Shown one piece after another: positions 14,101-58,181 of a DNA stretch of 64,000 nucleotides. The notes under the pieces are model-generated. The model was not told the origin of the DNA, ran no database searches, and was given only the letters and a program-made list of their open reading frames with translations. Location of the stretch: assembly GCF_042453785.1 (NCBI RefSeq), contig NC_091671.1, forward strand, positions 14,268,001-14,332,000, in the 5' to 3' direction. The first letter of the stretch is position 1. Each line of letters begins with the position of its first letter. The DNA is from Malus domestica (lineage: Eukaryota > Streptophyta > Magnoliopsida > Rosales > Rosaceae). The translations under genes were made by a program, and so were the position numbers.

Positions 14101-17094
<2,994 letters not shown>

Positions 17095-25094: not shown

Positions 25095-25099
25095 AATAC

Positions 25100-25470
25100 T
25101 GTTAGTACCATATTATATTGGGCATCGTTACTTAGGTTTCCAGACATTGAGCCCATAATCTATGTAAAAGGGGAGGAGCCATTAGTCTATAAAAGTGACT
25201 CCTCACCCTCACAATCCTCAAGCCTTACATCCCCAAACAGAGGCTCTCATATTCAGAGCAAAGCTCTCTCAAACTCTCTCTTTCTCTGGGGGACTCCCCT
25301 TCACACTTGTAATCCATACATACAGTTACAGAGAAATACAATCAACAACAGTGTGGACGTAGCCTAAACATTGGGGTGAACCACGATACATCTTGTATTC
25401 TTTACCATTATTGCAGATTCACGGTCGAATTTACGTTGTTCCAAGACCTCTTCGGTTTTATGCATCAACA
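25100..25470 (+). repeat. 5' LTR of element 1
   Basis: 371 bp, TG...CA. A TATA-like TCTATAAAAGTGAC lies at about 25176, followed by a CT-rich leader and CTTGTAATCC near the probable transcript middle. It differs from the 3' LTR by scattered substitutions (for example GGGCATCG against GGGCCTCG at about 25120), so the insertion is not brand new. Confidence 0.9.
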
Positions 25471-25696
25471 TTTGGCGCCGTCTGTGGGAATCAACACGAA
25501 AAGCTATGTTGATTTTCTTTCATTTTTTCATCTCACCACACTCCACCGTGAATCTACAGAAACCGAAAAACCAAACACCTGCACAGTCACCTCAAGACCA
25601 ATGTCTCCTACTCCAGCTCTTGGTCACGGCAGTAGCAATGGAAACACAATCACAGCCTCTTTCTCTCTCTCTCTAACTCCATGCTTCTGTAGTGCA

Positions 25697-25880
25697 GGCG
25701 GTCTCTCATTGCAAAACGACTACCAGGAAGAACAGACAATGATGTCAAAAACTACTGGAACACCAAGCTAAACAAGAAGCTTTTCAAGATGGGAATTGAC
25801 CCTGTCACCCAGAAACCCTATTCTTAGATCCTCTCCGACTACAGAAACATCAACGGCCTCCCAAGCACTGCCGGGAATCA
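25697..25880 (+). pseudogene. captured R2R3-MYB fragment (end of R3 repeat)
   Basis: Reads [20 protein letters not shown] then [22 protein letters not shown], a stop, then ILSDYRNINGLP. This is the third helix of the second MYB repeat and the adjoining conserved segment of plant R2R3-MYB transcription factors. The bases before it are a pyrimidine tract ending TGTAGTGCAG directly at the codon boundary where the R2R3-MYB second intron normally ends. This suggests that genomic, unspliced DNA was captured. The position before S, usually tryptophan, is arginine. It has no start and an internal stop, so it is not a functional factor. Confidence 0.85.
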
Positions 25881-25954
25881 TCTGTTCTTGTCCCTTTTCA
25901 AGTAATCGAAAAGTGCATTCGCACCCGAATTAAACTCTTCCTGCATCAGAGATC

Positions 25955-26662
25955 ATGCAACCCACTCTCCTTCAGCCAGGCGTCGTGGTATACGATGGAG
26001 TCTGCCATCTCCACCATGAAGGGTTGAAGTGGGTGATCAAAGCTGACAAGTACAAGAAGATCAAATTATGTTGCGTTCAATCGGAGACTGCTAAACCATA
26101 CCTGAGATTATGTGGTCTAGATCGAAAGGACTTTCCTCATCGCCCTCTCTCTTTGCTCCGAGTCACAATCGAGCACCCACTTCTAGTTCTAATGACGTCG
26201 CCGCTCGTTGAAAAACAGAGCAAGAAAACAAAGGAATCAGAAAAATCCAGAAAACCAAATAAGGACGTCGTCGTCGTCGTGAAGATGAAGGAAGCTCAAA
26301 AGGGGTTGATGGATTTTGAGAAAAAGAAGGAGTTAGATAGTGGGAGAAGGCTGTCGGTTTCATCCGCCGGGAGCGATGGCGGAGGAAAGAGAAGATCCCT
26401 ATCTGAACCGCAGGTGCAGTTGGCGAATGTGTTAGCAAGTAATGGGGTGAGAGTTGTTTCAGCTGATATGCCACCATTTATGCAGATCCATGCAGTGGAA
26501 TGTGCAAGAAAGACACATGATAGCCTGGAAAAGTTCACCTCCAAGACTCTTGTTTCGACTCTCAAGAAGCAAGACGTACGACATGGTGGACGACCCGGCT
26601 ACCGACTCGGTTGTGTCCTGGAGCTCCACCAACAGCAGCTTCATGGTTTGGAACCTGCCTGA
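25955..26662 (+). CDS. chimeric 235-codon ORF: DCC-domain start fused to dynein light chain-like
   Basis: An uninterrupted ORF from an ATG. Residues about 1-60 match the start of plant DCC-family (DUF393) thiol-disulfide oxidoreductase-like proteins ([10 protein letters not shown], then [13 protein letters not shown] and [10 protein letters not shown]). The usual second cysteine of the D-G-x-C-x-x-C motif is histidine here (CHLHH), so redox function would be lost. Residues about 80-206 match a plant dynein light chain (LC8-like) protein: its own ATG (26192), a charged linker and [21 protein letters not shown] followed by [13 protein letters not shown]. The last 30 residues are frame-shifted heat-shock factor sequence. 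Both genes are truncated, and no expression evidence can be seen. It may be transcribed from the LTR. Function is unknown and may be none. Confidence 0.6.
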
Positions 26663-26798
26663 GTTTGCTAGGGATCTCCTACAACTCTGGGCTTCTCTGG
26701 GACCTTCTTTCAAGAATATGGTGCCCAATAATCCGGTTCAGAACAACCCAATTCAGACCCAGGGTTTGAACTCTGAGAAGAAGATGATGCTGCAATAA
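26573..26798 (+). pseudogene. captured heat-shock transcription factor fragment plus unknown tail
   Basis: In the frame offset from the chimeric ORF, positions 26573-26683 read [20 protein letters not shown] then [17 protein letters not shown]. This is the N-terminal half of the HSF DNA-binding domain of plant class A factors, cut before the recognition helix. It joins the dynein fragment exactly at CTCAAGAAG/CAAGACG. The frame continues about 38 codons ([15 protein letters not shown] ... EKKMMLQ) to a stop at about 26798. This tail could be a fifth captured piece, but I do not recognise it. Confidence 0.8.
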
Positions 26799-27116
26799 AA
26801 AAAAGAATAAAAAAAAAAGACAGCCTCTGATGATGGGTGAAGTGACAGGACAACAGTCATCCACTATCCCGCTGAAAAACCCACCAACTTCTGCAAAAGA
26901 TAAGATGCTCTCCTTTAATATCCCATCATTATGTTTTTTCAATATTATTGTTTATTTAATTATTTTATTTGTGTCATGATGATTAATTATAAAATAATAA
27001 TTTTATTATTTCTTGATGACTAATTATAAAATAATAATTTTATTATTTTTATGTCATGATTACTTATGATTAAATAATATAATTATTATTTCTCATATCA
27101 CATGATTACTACCACG

Positions 27117-27450
27117 TTGTTGATTTATGCAGCATGTCATTTATCAAACAACTAAATAAATCATTTATTTATGATTATATATATACACACACATTTAGGT
27201 AATACCTAATATATTGTTGATTTATGCAGCATGTCATTTATCAAACAACTGAATAATATATATATATATACACACACACACACATTTAGGCAATACCTAA
27301 TATATTGTTGATTTATGCATCATGTCATTTATCAAACAACTGAATAAATCATTTATTCATGATTATATTTATACACACACATTTAGGCAATACCTAATAT
27401 ATTGTTGATTTATGCAACATGTCATTTATCACACAACAGAATAAATCATT
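27117..27450. repeat. tandem repeat of about 90-100 bp in element 1
   Basis: Three to four copies of a unit containing TTGTTGATTTATGCAGCATG, TCATTTATCAAACAACT and ACACACATTTAGGCAATACC. Copies begin near 27117, 27212, 27305 and 27400, and variable TA/CA microsatellites separate them. No coding. Confidence 0.8.
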
Positions 27451-27671
27451 TATTCACAAAAGGCACATAATACAACATTTTGCCTTAACAAACTTTGTCA
27501 ATTTGATTTATTCATTATACGGTCTTACTTATACTGTCATTTATTGTCAGGAATTATTGAGCAACTAAATGCACTGATCAACATTGTTGCTGATTAAAGA
27601 AGTCTACCAACTTATAGACTGATAAGCCACGTGCTTATGGTGATCTCATGTCTGACCAGACACCCACTTAC

Positions 27672-28160
27672 TTATCACCAACCAGGTGATCAAAAGTACG
27701 TCTAGTACTCCAAAATTATTCGGCAGTCTGCCGCTATTATCACCAACCAGGTGATCAAAAGTACGTCCAGTACTCCAAAATTATTCGGCAGGCTGCCGCT
27801 ATTATCACCAACAAAGTGATCAAAAGTACATCCAGTACTCCAAAATTATTCTGCAGCCTACCGCTATTATCACCAACTAGGTGATCAAAAGTACATCCAG
27901 TACTCCAAAATTGTACATGAGCATGACTCATGTCAATCATGCATAAACATTCATGAGCATCACTCATGTCAACATCATGAGCATCACTCATGTCAATCAA
28001 CATAAACATTCATGAGCATCACTCATGTCAATCAACTTTGAAAGTTTTATTTACAGAGCTCCAGCTTCGAGAGCTCCAGCTTCAAAAGCTTCATTTACAA
28101 AAGCTCTAGCTTCAAAGCTTCACTTGCAAAGCTTCACCTACAAAGTTTCAGTGCAGGGTA
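27672..28160 (+). repeat. three successive tandem-repeat modules of element 1
   Basis: Module A (27672-27915) has four units of about 63-65 bp with ATCACCAACCAGGTGATCAA and AGTACGTCCAGTACTCCAAA. ACCAGGTGAT/ATCACCAAC within it is partly palindromic. Module B (27915-28040) has units of ATGAGCATCACTCATGTCAA, itself a palindrome-like word (GAGCATCACTC). Module C (28050-28160) has units of AGCTTCAAAAGCTTCATTTA. The same three modules in the same order occur in element 2 at 32050-32790. Confidence 0.85.
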
Positions 28161-28249
28161 TACAAAGACCGCCTCTGAACAACCGCCACTTTAGCCCATA
28201 CATGGATTCAATTTGAAGTCTCTAGCTAACAGACTCTATTGACTGAAGA

Positions 28250-28575
28250 CTTGGGGGACTACACTATGTACCATATATTGGGCTTCCGCAACTGAGCCTC
28301 ATGAAAAATACTTGGGGGACTTAGCCCATTATTTATGTACTGAGGAGCGAACCCTTATTCTATAAAAGGGACTCCCTCACTTTCATTAGAGAGCACTCAT
28401 TATTCATGTATTGATGAGCGAACCCTTATTTTATAAAAATGATTCCTTCACCTTCATTAGAGAGCATCCCCGCCTGCTGAGCAACCGCCTCGCCGCGAGC
28501 ATTAACTCTAGTCCATCATTTATGTATTAAGGAGCGAGCCCTTATTCTATAAAAGAGACTCCCTCACCTTCAACG
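28250..28575 (+). repeat. LTR-promoter-like tandem segments before the 3' LTR
   Basis: Three degenerate copies of GAGCGAACCCTTATTCTATA followed by AAAGGGACTCC, with TATA-like cores near 28360, 28432 and 28553, resemble the promoter part of this family's LTR (TCTATAAAAG, then ACTCCTCACC). Two extra purine tracts (TTGGGGGACT at about 28252 and 28313) precede LTR-start-like sequence (TATGTACCATATATTGGGC). This looks like remains of an older LTR or of repeated template switching. Confidence 0.6.
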
Positions 28576-28784
28576 TCACAAGCCGAGCCAACCATGGCAA
28601 CATAAGCCACAAGCCGAGTAGCCTCGCAACATGTGCTACTTCTAGTTGAGCATCATTTCACATTGAACACTGCCTCATATCGAGTATCAGTTCTAGACGA
28701 CATCTATTTACTTCGGCCCACACATGGACTGAATTTCAAGTCTCCAGCCAAAAGACTATCTTGACTGAAGACTTGGGGGACTAC

Positions 28785-29155
28785 TGTTAGTACCATATTA
28801 TATTGGGCCTCGTTACTTGGGCTTCCACACATTAAGCCCATGATCTATGTAAAAGGGGAGGAGCTCTTAGTCTATAAAAGGGACTCCTCACCCTCACAAT
28901 CCTCAAACCTCACATCCCCAAATAGAGGCTTTCATATTCAGAGCAAAGCTCTCTCAAACTCTCTCTTTCTCTGGGGGACTCCCTCTCACACTTGTAATCC
29001 ATACATACAGTTACAGAGAAATATAATCAACATCAGTGTGGACGTAGCCCAAACATTGGGGTGAACCACGATACATCTTGTGTTCTTTACTATTCTTCTA
29101 GATTCACGGTTGGATTTACGTTGTTCCAAGACCCCTCCAGTTTTGTGCATCAACA
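28785..29155 (+). repeat. 3' LTR of element 1
   Basis: 371 bp, TGTTAGTACC ... GCATCAACA, followed by the target repeat AATAC. The TATA-like TCTATAAAAGGGAC is at about 28871. Confidence 0.9.
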
Positions 29156-29160
29156 AATAC

Positions 29161-30040
29161 TAAGAAAATAAAAGAAGAAATTAAATTATTTACTTACTTT
29201 TTTCTAAGCGTTCAAGTTCCTTGAAGAAATTGAATTTGTCGAGTGTAGGCTCCTTATATAAACAAAATTCATTTCCTCCTTTAAGCCAATCACTAGTACA
29301 CACGAAAGCCTCAACTGTTTTAGGTGTTAAGGAAGCTCTAAAATAATCAACAACTCTCCCACCAAAACTAAAGGCATTCTCACTAGCAACAGTGCTACTA
29401 GGAAGGGCCAATACATCCTTAGCAACTTTACTAAGAGTTAGACATGTACCACTATTTCCTTTCCACCAATCCAAAAGATTAAAACCCTCATATATTAGGC
29501 TTTGATGTAGATCATTGAAGTACATATCCACTTCATTGGCTATCTTATTTTGTTGTGCCACCGCTCTCTTTTGTTGGATCTTCCTTGTCATTCTTTTAGC
29601 AATATCAATATCTACCATATCCCCCTCAATCATCTAGTACAACACTTGATCTTTACTCCACATTTAAAGTAACACTACAACTATTACTACTACTACTACT
29701 AAGGATCACTCCCTCCTTATATGCATTATATAACTTGGTTACATAGCTTTTAACCCTTGCTTTCTTCTCCCTTATTTTGTCTCATCCATAGCCGAGCTCT
29801 TCTAGATTTGTCTCCAACATTTTAAATTTGTACCTCAAGTCGAGTGCTTGGGCTACAAAGAGAATAAGGTTCATCTTTTCAATGTCACCCTAATATTTGT
29901 CAAACTTGAGCTTTATTGAGGTAGCTACACTTTGCAAAGTGGCATTAGAGGTGTTTAAAATTTGTTCTTCTATCTCCACTTGCAAAGCAATCATTGTGCT
30001 AAGTATTAAGTGTGACATTGGAGTAAGGGTTGCACTCAAT
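29161..30040 (-). pseudogene. hAT transposase, C-terminal half, decayed
   Basis: On the - strand, the segment starting about 30000 reads IEEQILNTSNATL, then KLKFDKY and, after a stop, EKMNLILFVAQALDLRYKFK and AYKEGVILSSSSS. The ORF 29633-29190 follows with the hAT C-terminal dimerisation domain: NEVDMYFND, LLDWWKGN, LSKVAKDVLALPSSTVASEN, FSFGGRVVDYFRASLTPKTV. This order matches Ac/Tip100-type plant transposases. Stops interrupt it, and the N-terminal zinc finger is missing. The element was split on its left by insertion of the LTR element at 25100-29155 and ends on the right where element 2 starts. Confidence 0.85.
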
Positions 30041-30994
30041 GTCAAGGAAGGGGCAAATATGTAATTATGTAATAAAGGAAGGGGCAAATATGTAATAAGG
30101 AAGGGGCAAATATGTAATAAGTAAGGAGCCCTTATTCTATAAAAGGACTCATCACCCTCACAATTAGGGGAGGCCAATTCCTAAGGCTCATCATCCCCTC
30201 TCAAGGCTCTCACTCTCAGAGCTCTCTCTCCTTCAGAAATATAATCAATGTGGACGTAGCCTAAACCTTGGAGTGAACCACGATACATCTTGTGTTATTT
30301 ACATTTCTTGCAGATTCACGGTCGGATTTACGTTGTTCCAAGACTTCCGATTTTGTGCATCAACATTTGGTGTCGTCTGTGGGAATCAACATGAAAAGTT
30401 ATGTCAGTTCTCTCTCAATTTTTCACCTCCATCGTGAATCTGCAAAGAATCGCAAAAAACCCAGAAACAAAAAAGCTTCAAAGCCCTCTCTCCCTCACTA
30501 CTGAACCACTCTTAGCCAGGCTCCCTCACTAACATTGGACTTATCAACTTATCATATGTCATGTCACCATTAAAAATTGAAAGCATACGAACGTGGCTCC
30601 ACAAGTTTTTGGCAGTCGGCACGTTCCAAACTTCCAATCAGACCACGTGATTGATTTGCAGGTGAGGTGAGGACCTGAGAGGCCCCATTTTGATCGAAAA
30701 TTGATCTTATGGAGTCGAGCGTCTTTGAATTTCCAGGGATTTGAATTTCACACGGTCCGTCAATTAGTGGTACTGGTTTTGTCCCAAATGATGAACCAAA
30801 ATATAAGTCTTCATTGGAAAGGGGACAGCACCAAAAGCGAAAAACGGAAATTGGAAATACAGAAACTCAGCTGTTTAGTGTTTAAGGAGGTTGGGTTTTG
30901 CTGGGCTTCAATGGCTCTCATCTCCGAATCGTTTTTAAAACATAAAGCTTAGGCATCACTAGAGCTACAACCAATCTCAACAGCAGAAGCAAAA

Positions 30995-31545
30995 TCCACT
31001 TGCAACAGTGCAGACCAAGCCCAAATCAGTCTCCCGAGTCCCCGCCTATAATCCCAGCCCACGAAAAGTCCAAGAAGCTCTCTAACGCCGCCATTGTCCT
31101 CATCGTCATGGGGTCCGCTCTAGCCATGTTCCTACTTCTCCTCGTACTCTTCCTCTGCCTTCAGAAACGGTGCCAACATTAGCTAGCGAATGCACCAAAG
31201 CCATCTGTGGCCACACGGTCGGTAGAGGCGGAGGCTAGAACATCATCCTCGAAAGACGACATCACGGGTGGGTCTACCGAGGCGGAGAAAAACAAACTTG
31301 TGTTCTTCAACGGCAGAGTTTACAGCTTCGATTTGAAGGACTTGTTGAGAGCGTCGGCTGAGGTTTTGGGGAAGGAAAACGTGGGAACGTCGTACAAGAT
31401 GGTGCTGGAGGAAGAGACGACGGTGGTGGTGAAGCGGCTGAAGGACGTCGTGGTTACAAAAGAGAGTTCGAGATGACAATGGAGGTTCTGGGAAGATTAA
31501 GCACGACAATGTGGTGTCGCTACGCACATTTTACTTCTCGAAGGA
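30995..31545 (+). pseudogene. captured LRR receptor-like kinase fragment (juxtamembrane and kinase start)
   Basis: Reads a proline/serine-rich stalk, a transmembrane helix (AAIVLIVMGSALAMFLLLL), a stop at about 31180, then [50 protein letters not shown] and [13 protein letters not shown], then a frameshift near 31470 with EMTMEVLG in another frame. This matches plant LRR-III receptor kinases of the RKL1/RLK902 type. The G-K-G of the ATP loop is G-K-E. It lies inside the LTR element and has no LRR ectodomain or catalytic lobe. Confidence 0.85.
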
Positions 31546-32049
31546 CAAGCGATGATGAGCTGTGGACGAGAGCAGAAGAGTTTTTAGAAAGTAAAGCAAA
31601 AGCAAAAATAGAAAAGAAGATGCAAGAAATAGAAACAAAAACGAAAGTAAAAAGAAAAAAACAGCAGAAAGCATGGCTACCCACTAATGCACAGCAGCCC
31701 ACGCTCCAAGTTGATTAAGGGAATCAAGTTGGCACGATGACAGCGCAGAAGATGCCCCCCAACTTTCATTATGCATGTTCCAACTTTTCACAAACGACAC
31801 CACGATGTTAAAGAAAAAGAAAAAGGAGAAGGAAAAGAATAGAAAAAGAAAAAGACATAATTGTGGTGGTGATGGCATGTAGAAAAGGGAATGATGTAAT
31901 TTATTTTTCTTATCTTTGGGAAACATCTGTATAAACCCCATCAGAGGGTAATAATAAAAAATAAAAAATAAAAAAACGACAAGCCCAAAATAATGGGCTG
32001 CAATGTCATGTGGAGGGGCGGAGACCTATATGCCCAAAAGAGCCAAGCC

Positions 32050-32790
32050 CTCTATTATCACCAACCAGGTGATCAAAAGTACGCCCAGTACTCCACAATT
32101 ATTCTGCAACCTGCCGCTATTACCACCAACCAGGTGATCAAAAGTACGCCCAGTACTCCACAATTATTCGGCAACCTGCCGCTATTACCACCAACCAGGT
32201 GATCAAAAGTACGCCCAGTACTCCAAAATTATTCGGTAACCTGCCATTATTACCGCCAACCAAATGATCAAAAGTACGCCCAGTACTCCAAAATTATTCG
32301 GCAACCTGCCGCTATTACCACCAACCAAGTGATCAAAAGTACGTCCAGTACTCCCAAATTATACATGAGCATTACTCATGTCAATCATACATAAACATTC
32401 ATGAGCATTACTCATATCAATCATACATAAACATTCATGAGCATCACTCATGTCAACATTCATGAGCATCACTCATGTCAACATCCATGAGCATCACTCA
32501 TGTCAATCAACATAAACATTCATAAGCATCACTCATGTCAATCAGCTTCAAAAGCTTCATTTACAAAGCTCTAGCTTCAAAAGCTTCATTCACAAAAGCT
32601 CTAGCTTCAAAAGCTTCATTTACAGAGCTCCAGCTTCAAAAGCTTCATTCACAAAAGCTCTAGCTTCAAAAGCTTCGTTACAGAGCTCCAGCTTCAAAAG
32701 CTTCATTTACAGAGCTCCAGCTTCAAAAGCTTCATTTACAAAAGCTCCAGCTTCAAAGCTTCACTTGTAAAGCTTCACCTACAAAGCTTC
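32050..32790 (+). repeat. three successive tandem-repeat modules of element 2
   Basis: Module A (32050-32360) has five units with ACCAACCAGGTGATCAAAAG and TACGCCCAGTACTCCA. Module B (32362-32545) has about six units with ATGAGCATCACTCATGTCAA. Module C (32545-32790) has eight or more units of about 26-30 bp built on AGCTTCAAAAGCTTCATT with AGAGCTCCAGCTTC. Order and content equal those of element 1 at 27672-28160, but copy numbers are higher. Confidence 0.85.
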
Positions 32791-32918
32791 AGTGCAGGGT
32801 ATACAAATACCACCTCTGAACAACCACCATTTCGGCCCAAACATGAATTCAATTTGAAGTCTCTAGCCAACAGACTCTATTGACCGAAGACAAGGGGACT
32901 ACATTATATACCATATAG

Positions 32919-49678: not shown

Positions 49679-49796
49679 TGGCCTCAGAGCCTAGTTGGGT
49701 CTGATTTTTCTGGGCGTAGATTTTGTGAGGTTTGCTCTAGCAACTTTTCGTTGCAGAGAAAGTAAGTGAGAGAGAGAAGTGAGATCTAAGTCTAAC

Positions 49797-52700
49797 ATGG
49801 CTGGATCTGGTGGAGGAGAGCTTCGCGCTCCAATATTCAACGGAGAGAATTTCGATTTCTGGCAAATTCGAATGAAAACAATTTTCCGATCTTACGAGCT
49901 GTGGAGCATTGTTGAGATGGGTTTTCTACCTCCGGCGAAGGCGGAGGGTGAGATAGCAGAGGGGGAGATGAAATTGCATCGTGAAAATTTGGTCAAGGAT
50001 GCGAGGGCTCTTGGAATCATTCAAGGAGCAGTGTCGGATCAAATTTTTCCACGGATTGCAACTCTAGAAACTGCGAAGGCAGCTTGGGATATTCTGAAGC
50101 AAGAGTTCGTAGGAGATAAACAGGTACGATCTGTGAAATTACAAGGTCTTCGTCGTGATTTTGAATATACTCGTATGGGTGAAAGTGAATCTCTAGCTGC
50201 ATATCTAGCTAGTTTGTTTGATTTGATAAATCAGATAAAGAGTTATGGTGAAGATCTTAGTAATCAGAGAATTGTACAAAAGCTGTTGATCAGTTTACCT
50301 AAATCATATGATAGTATTGCTTCTGTTATTGAAAATACTAGAGATATTGATGTAATTGATGCACAAGATGTGGTTGCTATCCTAAAAGGGTATGAACTGA
50401 GATTAACTAGGCATCAAGAGAATAGCACTGAACGTGCATTTTCTAGCTTAGATATTTCATCTAAGAACAGTAAAGTTGGTAATCAGTTTACAAATATTGG
50501 TGGATTGAAATCTCAGAAGAATCTCAAGTTCAAAGGGAAGCAGTGGACTAACAGGTTCACCCCGGGTGTTAGGAATGAAGCAAATAACTCTGGAGGTGCT
50601 TGCAAATATTGTGATAAACTTCATTATGGAGAATGTTGGTTAAAAGGGAAGATTAAATGTCACAAGTGTGGGAAACTTGGTTATATTGCCAGAGTTTGTA
50701 ATCTGAACAAGAATGTCCAACAAGGAAACTTTGCAAACAAAGTGGTAGAACAAAAGAACTTTGCAAATAAGATGGGAGAACCTGGAAATCTGTTTATGGT
50801 TAAGCAATCAACTGAAGTGAAGGCTGTGAGTGATGCTTGGTATATAGACAATGCGTGTAGTAACCATATGACTTCCAGAGAGGAGTTACTTGTGGAAATT
50901 GATAGAAGTATTAAGGCAAAAGTACAAGTTGGCACAGGGGTTCTTGTTGATGTCAAAGGCAAAGGAACCTTAGTCATTGACACTGATAAAGGGAAAAGGT
51001 ACATAAGAGAAGTTATGTTGGTACCTGGAATTGCAGAGAATCTACTCAGTGTTGGGCAAATGACTGAACATGGGTACTTTCTAGTATTTGGTGATTATAA
51101 GGTGGATATATTTGATGACAGAACTCTGACAAACTTAGTGGTTAGTGTGAAGCAAAAGGGGAACAGATGCTTTCCACTTGTGTTCAAATCAAATGATCAC
51201 TTGGTACTGAAACACAATGTGCATCAGAGTAGTACAATGTGGCATAAACGGTTTGGCCATCTGAATTATAGGAGTCTGCAACAATTGCAGGAGCATGATA
51301 TGGTTCTTGGATTACCTGAAATGCATGACAGTGAAGGTGTATGTCAGGGATGTGCATTTGGTAAGAATCATAGAGTATCTTTTCCGAAGGAGTCAATTTG
51401 GAGAGCAAGAATGCCATTGGAACTCATACACTCAGATGTGTGTGGTCCTATGTAAACACCAACCATGGGTGGAAACAGGTACTTTGTTACATTCATTGAT
51501 GATCATTCGCGGATGTGCTGGATATATCTTTTGAGACATAAGTCAGATGTTTTTCATGTATTCAAGAAATTCAAAGCTATGGTGGAACTTCAAAGTGGAT
51601 TTTCTGTGAAGAAATTGAGAACAGATAGAGGAGGAGAATTCACCTCAAATGAGTTTGATCAGTTTTGTGAAGCTTTGGGTTTGGAAAGGCAACTTACTGT
51701 TGCATATTCTCCACAACAGAATGGAGTTGCAGAGAGAAAAAACAGAACTGTAGTGGAGATGGCAAAGTGTATGCTTCACGAGAAAGGTCTTCCTTATAGT
51801 ATTTGGGGTGAAGCTGTGGTTACATCCGTTTATTTGCTCAATAGATGTCCTACAAAAGCTTTGGAAAATGTGACACCTTTTGAGAAATTCAGTGGAAGAA
51901 AACCTGGAATTAAACACTTGAGAATGTTTGGCTCATTAGGGTATTCCCTTATTCCAGGAAATCTGAGACATAAGTTGGATGAAACAAGTGTCATTGGTAT
52001 TTTTATTGGATATGGCACTTGTGAAAAGGGGTATAGATTACTCAATCCTGAAACGCAGAAAGTAATTCTCTCAAGAGATGTTATTTTTGATGAGAATGGT
52101 AAATAGGATTGGGATAAACAGAAGATCAAAGAAGTGTGCATTCCATTTACTGCAAGTGAATCTCCAGAGATGAAAGAAGCTGATGAGGATTCTGGTTTCA
52201 TGGAACAAGTTGTTACTGAAGGTTCTCAGACTCAAATTACAGATTCTCCATTCATTGAGTCTGAAAGTGCTAGTGACTCAATTTCTACACCTCAGGTTGA
52301 TCATACTCCTCTGAGATATAGAAATTTGAGTGAAATCTATGAAAGATGTCATGTGTGTATTGTTGAACCTGAATCTTATCATGAAGCTGCACATGATGAA
52401 TCATGGAGGAAAGCCATGGAAGATGAAATGAGCATGATTGAGAAAAATAAAACTTGGGAATTAGTGAAAATACCATCTGATAAACCTGTGATTGGTGTGA
52501 AATGGGTGTACAAAACTAAGTTGAATCTGGATGGATCAGTTCAAAAGAACAAGGCTAGACTTGTTGCAAAAGGCTATGCACAAAAGCCCGGAATTGATTA
52601 TAATGAAACCTTGCACCGGTTGCAAGGTTGGATACAATCAGAACATTAATTGCACTGGCAACAAAGAACAAATGGAAGTTGTTTCAATTGGATGTAAAAT

Positions 52701-53861
52701 CAGCATTCTTGAATGGTGTGCTAGAAGAGGAAGTGTATGTCGATCAGCCAGATGGGTTCATGGTACAGGGAGAGGAAGATAAGGTCTACAAGTTACATAA
52801 AGCACTGTATGGACTGAAGCAGGCCGAGAGCCTGGTATGGTGAAATAGACTCATATCTTACACTCTGTGGGTTTAAGAAAAGCACCAGTGAAGCAACTTT
52901 GTATACCAATTGGAGGAAAGATGCAGAAATGATTATAGTATCCATTTATGTTGATGATATAATATACACTGGAAGTTGTCAGGAATTGATGGATGCTTTT
53001 AAATCTGATATGATGCTAAAATATGAGATGACTGATCTTGGACTCTTACATCATTTTCTTGGTATGGGAGTAATGCAAACTGAGGAGTATATTTTCATTC
53101 ATCAGAGAAAATATGCTTCCTCTCTACTGAAGAAATTTGGACTTCAAGATTTCAAGTCAGTGAGTACTCCATTGGTTTCAGGTGATAAATTGAGAAAAGA
53201 AGATGGAAGTGGGACTGCAGATGAAGCTCAATATAGACAAATTGTAGGCAGTTTGTTGTATCTCACAGCAACTAGACCTGACATAATGTATGCTGCATGT
53301 TTGCTATCACAGTTTATGCACTGTCCAACCAACAAGCATTTTGGGACAGCAAAGAGAGTACTAAGATATGTTCGAGGAACTCTTGATTTTGGCTTGGAAT
53401 ACAAGAAAGGTGAAGGGGCAATCTTAGTGGGATTTTGTGACAGTGATTGGAGCGGTTCTGAAGATGATATGAAAAGTACATCTGGGTATGCCTTTACGTT
53501 TGGCAGTGGAATTTTCTCTTGGTCTTCGGTCAAGCAACAATGTGTTGCATTATCTACAGCTGAAGCAGAGTACATTAGTGCATCTGAAGCAACTACACAG
53601 GCTACTTGGTTGAGATTTGTGTTGGAGGATTTTGGTGAAATGCAAACAGTTGCAACACCAATGAATTGTGACAATACCTCAGCCATAGCCATCACTAAAA
53701 ATCCTATCTTTCATCAGAAGACCAAGCATATCAACAGAAGATACCATTTCATAAAGGAAGCACTGCAACAAGGAGTAATTGAGTTGTTGCACTGTCCTAC
53801 GAAAGAGCAAATTGCTGATATCTTTACAAAGGCATTGGCAAGGGACAATTCAGTTATCTGA
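49797..53861 (+). pseudogene. copia gag-pol polyprotein with two nonsense changes and at least three frameshifts
   Basis: Begins at the ATG at 49797 (MAGSGGGELRAP). Gag has FNGENFDFWQIRMKTIF and a zinc knuckle at about 50657 reading CHKCGKLGYIARVC, where the usual histidine of C-x2-C-x4-H-x4-C is tyrosine. The protease-like segment has AWYIDNACSNHMT. Integrase has HKRFGHLNYRSL ... CQGCAFGK, FIDDHSRMCW and the region PQQNGVAERKN. Reverse transcriptase has NKARLVAKGYAQKPG and the catalytic YVDDIIYTG. RNase H has ALSTAEAEYISASEA. Breaks seen: in-frame stops at 51453 and 52104, and single- or few-base losses near 52612, 52818 and 53845. The element cannot make a complete polyprotein. Confidence 0.92.
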
Positions 53862-57814: not shown

Positions 57815-58181
57815 TGTTGATGCACAAAACCGGAGGTCTTGGAACAACGTAAATCCAACCGTGAATCTGCATGAAATGTAAATAACACAAGATGTATCGT
57901 GGTTCACCTCAAGGTTTGGGCTATGTCCACACTGATATTGTATTTATCTGAGAGGTGAGGGGAGTGAGGGAGAGAACCTTTGAATATGAGAGGAGGTGTG
58001 AGAGGGGTGAGAAGGCTTCAGAAATGACCTTCCCTAATTGTGACGGTGATGAGTCATTTTATAGAATAAGGGATCCTCACTTATTACATATTTGCCCCTT
58101 CCTTTATTACATAATTACATTTAAGTCTCCCAAATATTTGTACGAGATCTAAATACGGAGGCCCTAAGTATGGTATAAACA
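57815..58181 (-). mobile_element. solo LTR of the short-LTR family in threonine deaminase intron 1
   Basis: 367 bp in reverse orientation: the + strand starts TGTTGATGCACAAAACC (complement of the family LTR end) and ends TATGGTATAAACA (complement of its TG start). A perfect 5-bp repeat AAACT flanks it (57810-57814 and 58182-58186). Conserved words include ACAAGATGTATCGTGGTTCA and the TATA box complement (TTTTATAGAATAAGG, about 58058). No internal region is present, so it arose by recombination between LTRs. It is closer to the LTR of element 2 than to that of element 1 (GGAAGGGGCAAATATGTAAT is shared). Confidence 0.9.

Follow-up and report, generated by a model that had tools for sequence, protein, structure and literature searches.

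How did a locus in the apple genome (Malus domestica) come to hold pieces of several unrelated host genes between two long terminal repeats (LTRs)? The question is raised by the element at positions 25100-29155 of the 64,000-nucleotide stretch of contig NC_091671.1 that was analysed here (the window). This element contains pieces of six host genes, all in sense orientation, whose best donors lie on six different contigs of the same genome. It very probably belongs to a non-autonomous LTR family that is moved in trans, takes up host mRNAs through template switching and shuffles the pieces gained in this way.

A complete LTR element without gag and pol

The element is complete (4.06 kb), with TG...CA ends, 371-bp LTRs, a site resembling a primer-binding site and a polypurine tract. 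Its parts, with strand in brackets, are listed below; contigs of the genome are denoted by C and related elements (siblings) by L.

25095-25099 (no strand): target-site duplication AATAC, left (from the sequence)
25100-25470 (+): 5′ LTR, TG...CA, with TATAAAAG at ~25188; 342/371 identical to the 3′ LTR
25473-25490 (+): primer-binding-site-like TGGCGCCGTCTGTGGGAA, directly 3′ of the 5′ LTR (from the sequence)
25491-25675 (+): family leader with a CT tract at its end, common to sibling elements up to ~25675
25657-25948 (+): R2R3-MYB piece; begins as the last part of an intron, which reaches 25697, and continues as exon sequence containing two in-frame stops; the CT tract belongs to both this piece and the leader
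25950-26142 (+): DCC thiol-disulfide oxidoreductase piece; two exons joined by splicing
26136-26218 (+): ascorbate peroxidase piece; 5′ untranslated region (5′UTR) plus first codons (MTSPLV)
26210-26569 (+): dynein light chain piece; stops exactly at the donor exon end (5′ splice site)
26568-26680 (+): HSF (heat-shock factor) DNA-binding-domain piece (Pfam and genome match)
26681-26711 (+): spacer of 31 bases, common in whole to L040 and in part to L048
26712-26788 (+): GRAS (SCARECROW-LIKE) gene piece (genome match)
26783-28770 (+): family-specific 3′ non-coding region with 97-bp repeats (27117-27456), 65-bp repeats (27672-27912) and LTR-like repeats (28327-28582)
28771-28784 (+): polypurine tract region ACTTGGGGGACTAC, before the 3′ LTR (from the sequence)
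28785-29155 (+): 3′ LTR (LTR comparison)
29156-29160 (no strand): target-site duplication AATAC, right (from the sequence)

The original prediction, made from the sequence alone, had described 371-bp LTRs, a perfect target repeat and the absence of gag and pol, and all three descriptions hold. The two LTRs differ by 29 mismatches over 371 bp with no gaps (K2P 0.084), which at the often used substitution rate of 1.3e-8 per site and year corresponds to an insertion age of about 3 million years, and to an older one at slower tree rates. No gag or pol model was detected in any of the 29 open reading frames (ORFs) of at least 50 codons that overlap the element on either strand (Pfam, E 0.01); the only models matched among them were HSF and DCC. 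The element thus lacks the gag and pol coding of an autonomous LTR retrotransposon, and because it lacks both genes its movement would have been in trans. Nor does it belong, at 4.06 kb and with 371-bp LTRs, to the TRIM class, which by its size limits holds very small elements without coding capacity. In place of the hallmarks of Pack-MULEs and Helitrons it displays LTRs and a 5-bp duplication, although no search was made for Helitron ends. Within the 3′ region, positions 28188-28582 hold near-copies of two stretches, the LTR promoter region and the polypurine-LTR joint, an arrangement that looks like the outcome of a duplication of old LTR starts.

Six gene pieces and their donors

When positions 25560-26900 were compared with the same genome, which comprises 651 Mb in 19 contigs (40 of 144 candidate places scored), each piece found a best donor, at 85-94% identity overall. 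The MYB piece (25657-25951) matches C9:2671427-2671721(-) at 93% over 295 bp; the DCC piece matches C13:5770345-5770663(-) in two exons at 93% and 87%, and C16 is only a little more distant (two exons, 90% and 86%). The ascorbate peroxidase piece (26136-26218) matches two places on C5, 24084966(-) at 89% and 24101731(-) at 85%; we take the gene at the latter to be an ascorbate peroxidase from the start of its protein. The dynein light chain piece matches C14:27305692-27306051(-) at 94% over 360 bp, the HSF piece C16:33782161-33782273(-) at 92% over 113 bp and the GRAS piece C7:34546877-34546953(+) at 91%, the C7 donor gene itself scoring 3.4e-57 with the Pfam GRAS model. In the element, Pfam passes its curated cut-offs for Myb (4.8e-7) and HSF (2.2e-6), while DCC1-like (2.8e-5; 25.7 bits against a cut-off of 27.8) and Dynein_light (0.013; 16.2 bits against 29.1) fall below theirs, so it is the genome matches that decide identity. 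Among proteins, Pyrus and Malus sequences come first in a search with the dynein piece, and by eye the dynein gene on C6 looks nearest to Malus proteins.

The MYB, DCC, dynein and HSF pieces on one strand, as originally proposed, are therefore real, each with a donor at 87-94%, but the count of four is too low by the ascorbate peroxidase and GRAS pieces. Similarly, the three junctions first placed at 25950, 26190 and 26572 are near real joints, and the actual junctions lie at ~25949, 26136-26142, 26210-26218, 26568-26569 and 26681-26711. Among the 40 places scored of 144, the full order of pieces was found nowhere but in the window, and in no locus outside transposons. Modules of the cargo do recur in siblings (see below). 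The pieces derive from host genes and not from other transposons: the flanks of ~0.7-1.5 kb around the best-matching donor loci of the six pieces contain no match to the LTR or the 3′ region of the element. A MYB-like gene lies ~5 kb upstream of a dynein light chain gene on both C14 (27305692/27311456) and C6 (31043013/31048320). This linkage was considered as a source of the cargo and rejected, as the MYB identity there is only 72-77%, compared with 93% for the C9 gene.

A 242-codon frame spans the DCC, ascorbate peroxidase and dynein pieces, as would be expected of a working chimeric gene, formed by exon shuffling and kept by selection, rather than of cargo. Such a gene is scarcely credible here. 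The HSF piece is in another frame, the MYB piece contains two stops, and no protein with both DCC and dynein domains was present among the 120 matches listed of 261. Between element and donors there are 26 synonymous against 44 amino-acid or stop changes, a count, with no formal test, that covers the MYB, DCC, dynein, HSF and GRAS pieces and leaves out ascorbate peroxidase; since the donors are under constraint, it gives no sign of a kept chimeric protein.

Introns lost exactly

In the DCC piece the 126-bp intron of the donor is gone exactly at GT-AG, with 14 of 16 flanking bases matching. On the evidence of its sequence, this piece is a capture via RNA. The same intron has been removed in L042, a sibling selected by its cargo, and the pattern extends to three siblings selected by their LTRs, whose pieces have lost eight introns exactly at GT-AG: four of a CYP97A-like gene in L009, three of a YKT6-like gene in L011 and one of a DUF630 gene in L019. 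At each of these joints 15 or 16 of the 16 flanking bases match. The introns of the siblings and of the DCC donor are defined by gaps in genome matches, not by annotation. The naming of the L009 cargo as CYP97A and of the L011 cargo as YKT6 is our assumption; Pfam gives p450 and Longin, respectively. The MYB piece behaves differently in that it starts within the CT-rich tail of an intron and passes the 3′ splice site unspliced, the preceding MYB exon being visible upstream in the donor.

A family whose cargo differs by copy

Siblings have the LTR, the leader and the 3′ arrays in common, and the middle varies. Two sets were assembled. The LTR-selected set comprises seven of the nine non-self LTR loci whose match continues into the leader (L012 and L030, in a nested arrangement on C5, were left out); the loci were drawn from 30 of the 40 places scored, and the 2885 first-look candidates are not a copy number, nor are the 3881 obtained with the middle plus 3′ part of L040. 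The leader-selected set comprises eight of nine loci taken from the places that match the leader only, L053 being omitted as a near copy of L052. Reading frames of at least 40 codons were scanned.

Host domains are present in six of the seven LTR-selected siblings: UQ_con in L003, p450 in L009, EF-hand in L011, U-box in L023 and Methyltransf_29 in L015 from single-ORF scans, and L019 assigned through a DUF630 match in the pooled scan, its translation and its donor. They are also present in at least six of the eight leader-selected siblings, namely Fer2_3 in L047, L052 and L055, SufE in L051, I29 in L054 and Band_7 in L059; in L057 and L058 the ORFs, scanned singly, returned no host domain. The number of siblings counted is low, and those that share cargo do not count as independent (L047, L052 and L055 hold one cargo gene). 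Several genes can occur in one copy: L011 matches three loci (C12, C17 and C2) and the cargo of L019 two (C2 and C11). For L003, the genome matches of the cargo are dominated by a different repeat and point to no donor.

The cargo is biased to the sense strand. Sense ORFs matched 11 Pfam models among 84 in the LTR-selected set and 15 among 89 in the leader-selected set, numbers that include overlapping EF-hand and Fer4 models. A weak New_glue match, in a frame of L019 other than that of DUF630, was counted as spurious. The antisense control, which covered 13 of the 15 elements (without L057 and L058), gave one model in one of 129 ORFs. No retrotransposon model, pol included, was matched in either the sense or the antisense scans of the siblings.

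The copies inserted separately. Perfect 5-bp target duplications (ACATG, AGACT, ATCCT and AAAAC, plus AATAC in the window) flank five of the seven copies in which both outer flanks were read, the other two agreeing in 4 of 5 bases; a C5 pair, in which the LTR is followed by a primer site, and L040, with one flank only, are outside this count. Divergence between LTRs ranges from 0.026 to 0.084 in eight pairs. Two LTR pairs ~10.7 kb apart, on C4 and C10, were considered as autonomous copies and rejected: gag in their 5-kb middles reads against the direction of the LTR pair, and these middles look like other elements inserted there.

These observations bear on capture at the DNA level, whether at breaks, by filler DNA or gene conversion, or through a Helitron or Pack-MULE nested in an LTR element. 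The retained intron end of the MYB piece and the linkage of MYB-like and dynein genes on C14 and C6 would both be accommodated by such a route. It is contradicted, however, by the exact splicing of the DCC, CYP97A-like, YKT6-like and DUF630 pieces (that is, in the window, L042, L009, L011 and L019), and it sits poorly with the sense bias of the cargo and with cargo that differs among copies with their own target duplications. DNA-level capture is thus very improbable for the family, although it could still hold for the MYB piece alone.

The window contains other traces of mobile elements. A second family member (30060-32917, +; start approximate) lies ~1 kb downstream with a different variable middle; its 3′ LTR was not found, and directly beyond 30365, where a related LTR ends, stands a slightly different version of the primer-site string. 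By eye its frame at 31183-31476 reads like a receptor kinase, with no Pfam match at 0.001. Related LTR pieces occur at 57815-58090 (-), and a 102-base stretch at 15195-15296 is 94% identical, on the opposite strand, to part of the L047 middle. The element itself sits just past the end of a hAT transposase C-terminal domain (29190-29633, -; Pfam 2.5e-23), and at 49770-53861 there are reading frames that by eye resemble a fragmented copia-type polyprotein.

Joints and shared modules

Bases shared between adjoining parts were compared at six joints, as raw overlaps, and were found at five. The MYB-DCC joint shares AG, beside a mismatch; the DCC-peroxidase joint five of seven bases (TC.TCG); the peroxidase-dynein joint GA; the dynein-HSF joint AG; and the joint of GRAS with the 3′ region GATGAT. 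At the HSF-GRAS joint the 31-base spacer takes the place of an overlap. The leader-MYB joint falls within a CT tract that is present in both the C9 intron and the leader. Shared bases at five of six joints are as template switching predicts. The dynein-HSF joint allows a second interpretation. The dynein piece ends exactly where its donor exon does (AAG, followed in the donor by GTAACT, with the next exon beginning GAATTTGATGG), and the HSF piece begins right after an AG. A donor 5′ splice site placed in this way fits splicing within the element RNA, but the joint fits a 2-base overlap as well.

Several joints are shared between members. The leader-MYB joint, with derived bases, is common to the window, L035, L036, L037, L038 and L039, in which the MYB end points differ. 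The HSF-spacer joint is common to the window, L040 and L048, and L040 has the whole HSF-spacer-GRAS block in common with the window; the GRAS piece of L074 is not accompanied by HSF. Because joints and modules are shared in this manner, stepwise growth and exchange are indicated and not a single event, and the window element was probably assembled stepwise. Other pieces look, from their sequences, like captures separate from those in the window: the DCC piece of L042 reaches further upstream and stands without MYB, and the dynein piece of L044 is donor-like. One L042 base is common with the window against both donors. L074 (C11:31201800-31205600) and L040 (C10:36193850-36197076) both contain a 213-base piece, presumably of the GPI transamidase gene GPAA1, which joins GRAS directly in L074 and has HSF between in L040. 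Splicing as the source of this difference was rejected, since the extra stretch of L040 has no GT at its start.

Sense, spliced pieces would likewise be expected if element transcripts had run into neighbouring genes and been packaged and trimmed, a read-through transduction known for retroviruses in which free mRNAs play no part. Against this, it requires successive insertions beside six genes. Furthermore, the pieces lie between the leader and the 3′ region, with switches at both ends, and one starts in a 5′UTR and others in mid-exon. Read-through transduction is accordingly quite unlikely.

A model for capture

Capture during reverse transcription by template switching, as first proposed for this locus, gains support from donors on separate contigs, the uniform sense orientation, the precise removal of the DCC intron and overlaps at the joints. 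In the model we favour, the element would keep only the signals needed in cis (LTRs, primer site, leader and polypurine tract), be packaged by a putative autonomous partner and insert by the usual integrase reaction. Its middle would be built stepwise during reverse transcription: the enzyme, working on element RNA, would switch to host mRNAs and back through a few shared bases, leaving cDNA pieces in sense orientation, and co-packaged relatives would exchange blocks. The window copy may thus represent a leader-MYB block and an HSF-GRAS block, both found in relatives, joined with DCC, ascorbate peroxidase and dynein pieces.

Several observations weigh against this model. Overlaps of 2 bp, at three of the joints, are weak when taken alone, the HSF-GRAS joint has none, and the overlaps were compared with no chance control. 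Since the MYB piece starts inside an intron, it did not come from a fully spliced mRNA. The DCC intron is the only one that falls inside a piece of the window element, and for the other pieces an origin from RNA is argued from the siblings. Finally, L014 displayed no host domain in the Pfam scans, and the lone antisense match was to p450.

A more far-reaching proposal is that this Malus LTR lineage is a dedicated platform for gene shuffling at the RNA level, in which almost all copies capture pieces of host mRNA as a matter of course, template switching passes modules from one member to another and the element RNA is sometimes spliced before reverse transcription. We consider the chances of this proposal to be even.

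Comparison with known systems

Pack-MULEs and Helitrons are DNA transposons without LTRs, and Pack-MULEs carry exons and introns. Like them, the apple element is mobile and brings pieces of host genes together in new combinations, but it is not a member of either group.

A family with host pieces in most sampled copies, several of them multi-gene, would give many independent captures with known donors, and could let switch sites, donor choice, splicing state and module exchange be measured in plant retrotransposon replication. The family may moreover give rise to chimeric transcripts and to small RNAs directed at donor genes, and such elements may shuffle plant genes as they spread. The primer-site string had no matches in the papers searched, and no earlier description of such a family in apple or pear was found in literature represented largely by titles and the beginnings of abstracts.

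The comparisons that follow draw on portions of the cited papers. Bs1 of maize is an LTR element in which three host genes were captured as exons (PMC13317346, PMC4717578), and template switching between packaged RNAs has been described (PMC13317346). Like Bs1, the apple element holds exon pieces of several host genes between its LTRs; they are in sense and their introns are removed, the MYB intron remnant being the exception. It differs from Bs1 in having six gene pieces, one of them partly intronic, and a family cargo that varies by copy. Gene-bearing TRIMs were reported in one Medicago and six soybean subfamilies in a survey that included apple and pear, and the soybean TRIM GmaRetroS15 contains exon pieces of three genes and no introns (PMC4717578). 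GmaRetroS15 is likewise non-autonomous, with 5-bp duplications and intronless exon pieces (PMC4717578), but the gene-bearing TRIMs measure 1,172-1,449 bp, whereas the apple element has 4.06 kb, 3′ repeat arrays and six genes. The multi-gene LTR cases found described in these portions, Bs1 and GmaRetroS15, thus have three genes each.

A maize survey identified 425 LTR elements with gene fragments, from at least 189 captures; the presence of host gene fragments within intact LTR elements is what they share with the apple family, and under that survey's own conditions no single element combined fragments of two or more standard nuclear genes (PMC2774510). LTR elements have captured genes in rice and sorghum (PMC3726574), and in pepper they have driven retroduplication (PMC5664825); the numbers run from hundreds to thousands per genome. 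As in apple, the pepper genes derive from spliced mRNAs and lie within LTR elements (PMC5664825). In the portions consulted, however, these reports describe genes within LTR elements, not many short pieces from unrelated genes joined together. That LTR elements capture genes is already known; six genes in a single copy and capture as the habit of a family look like a new form of it.

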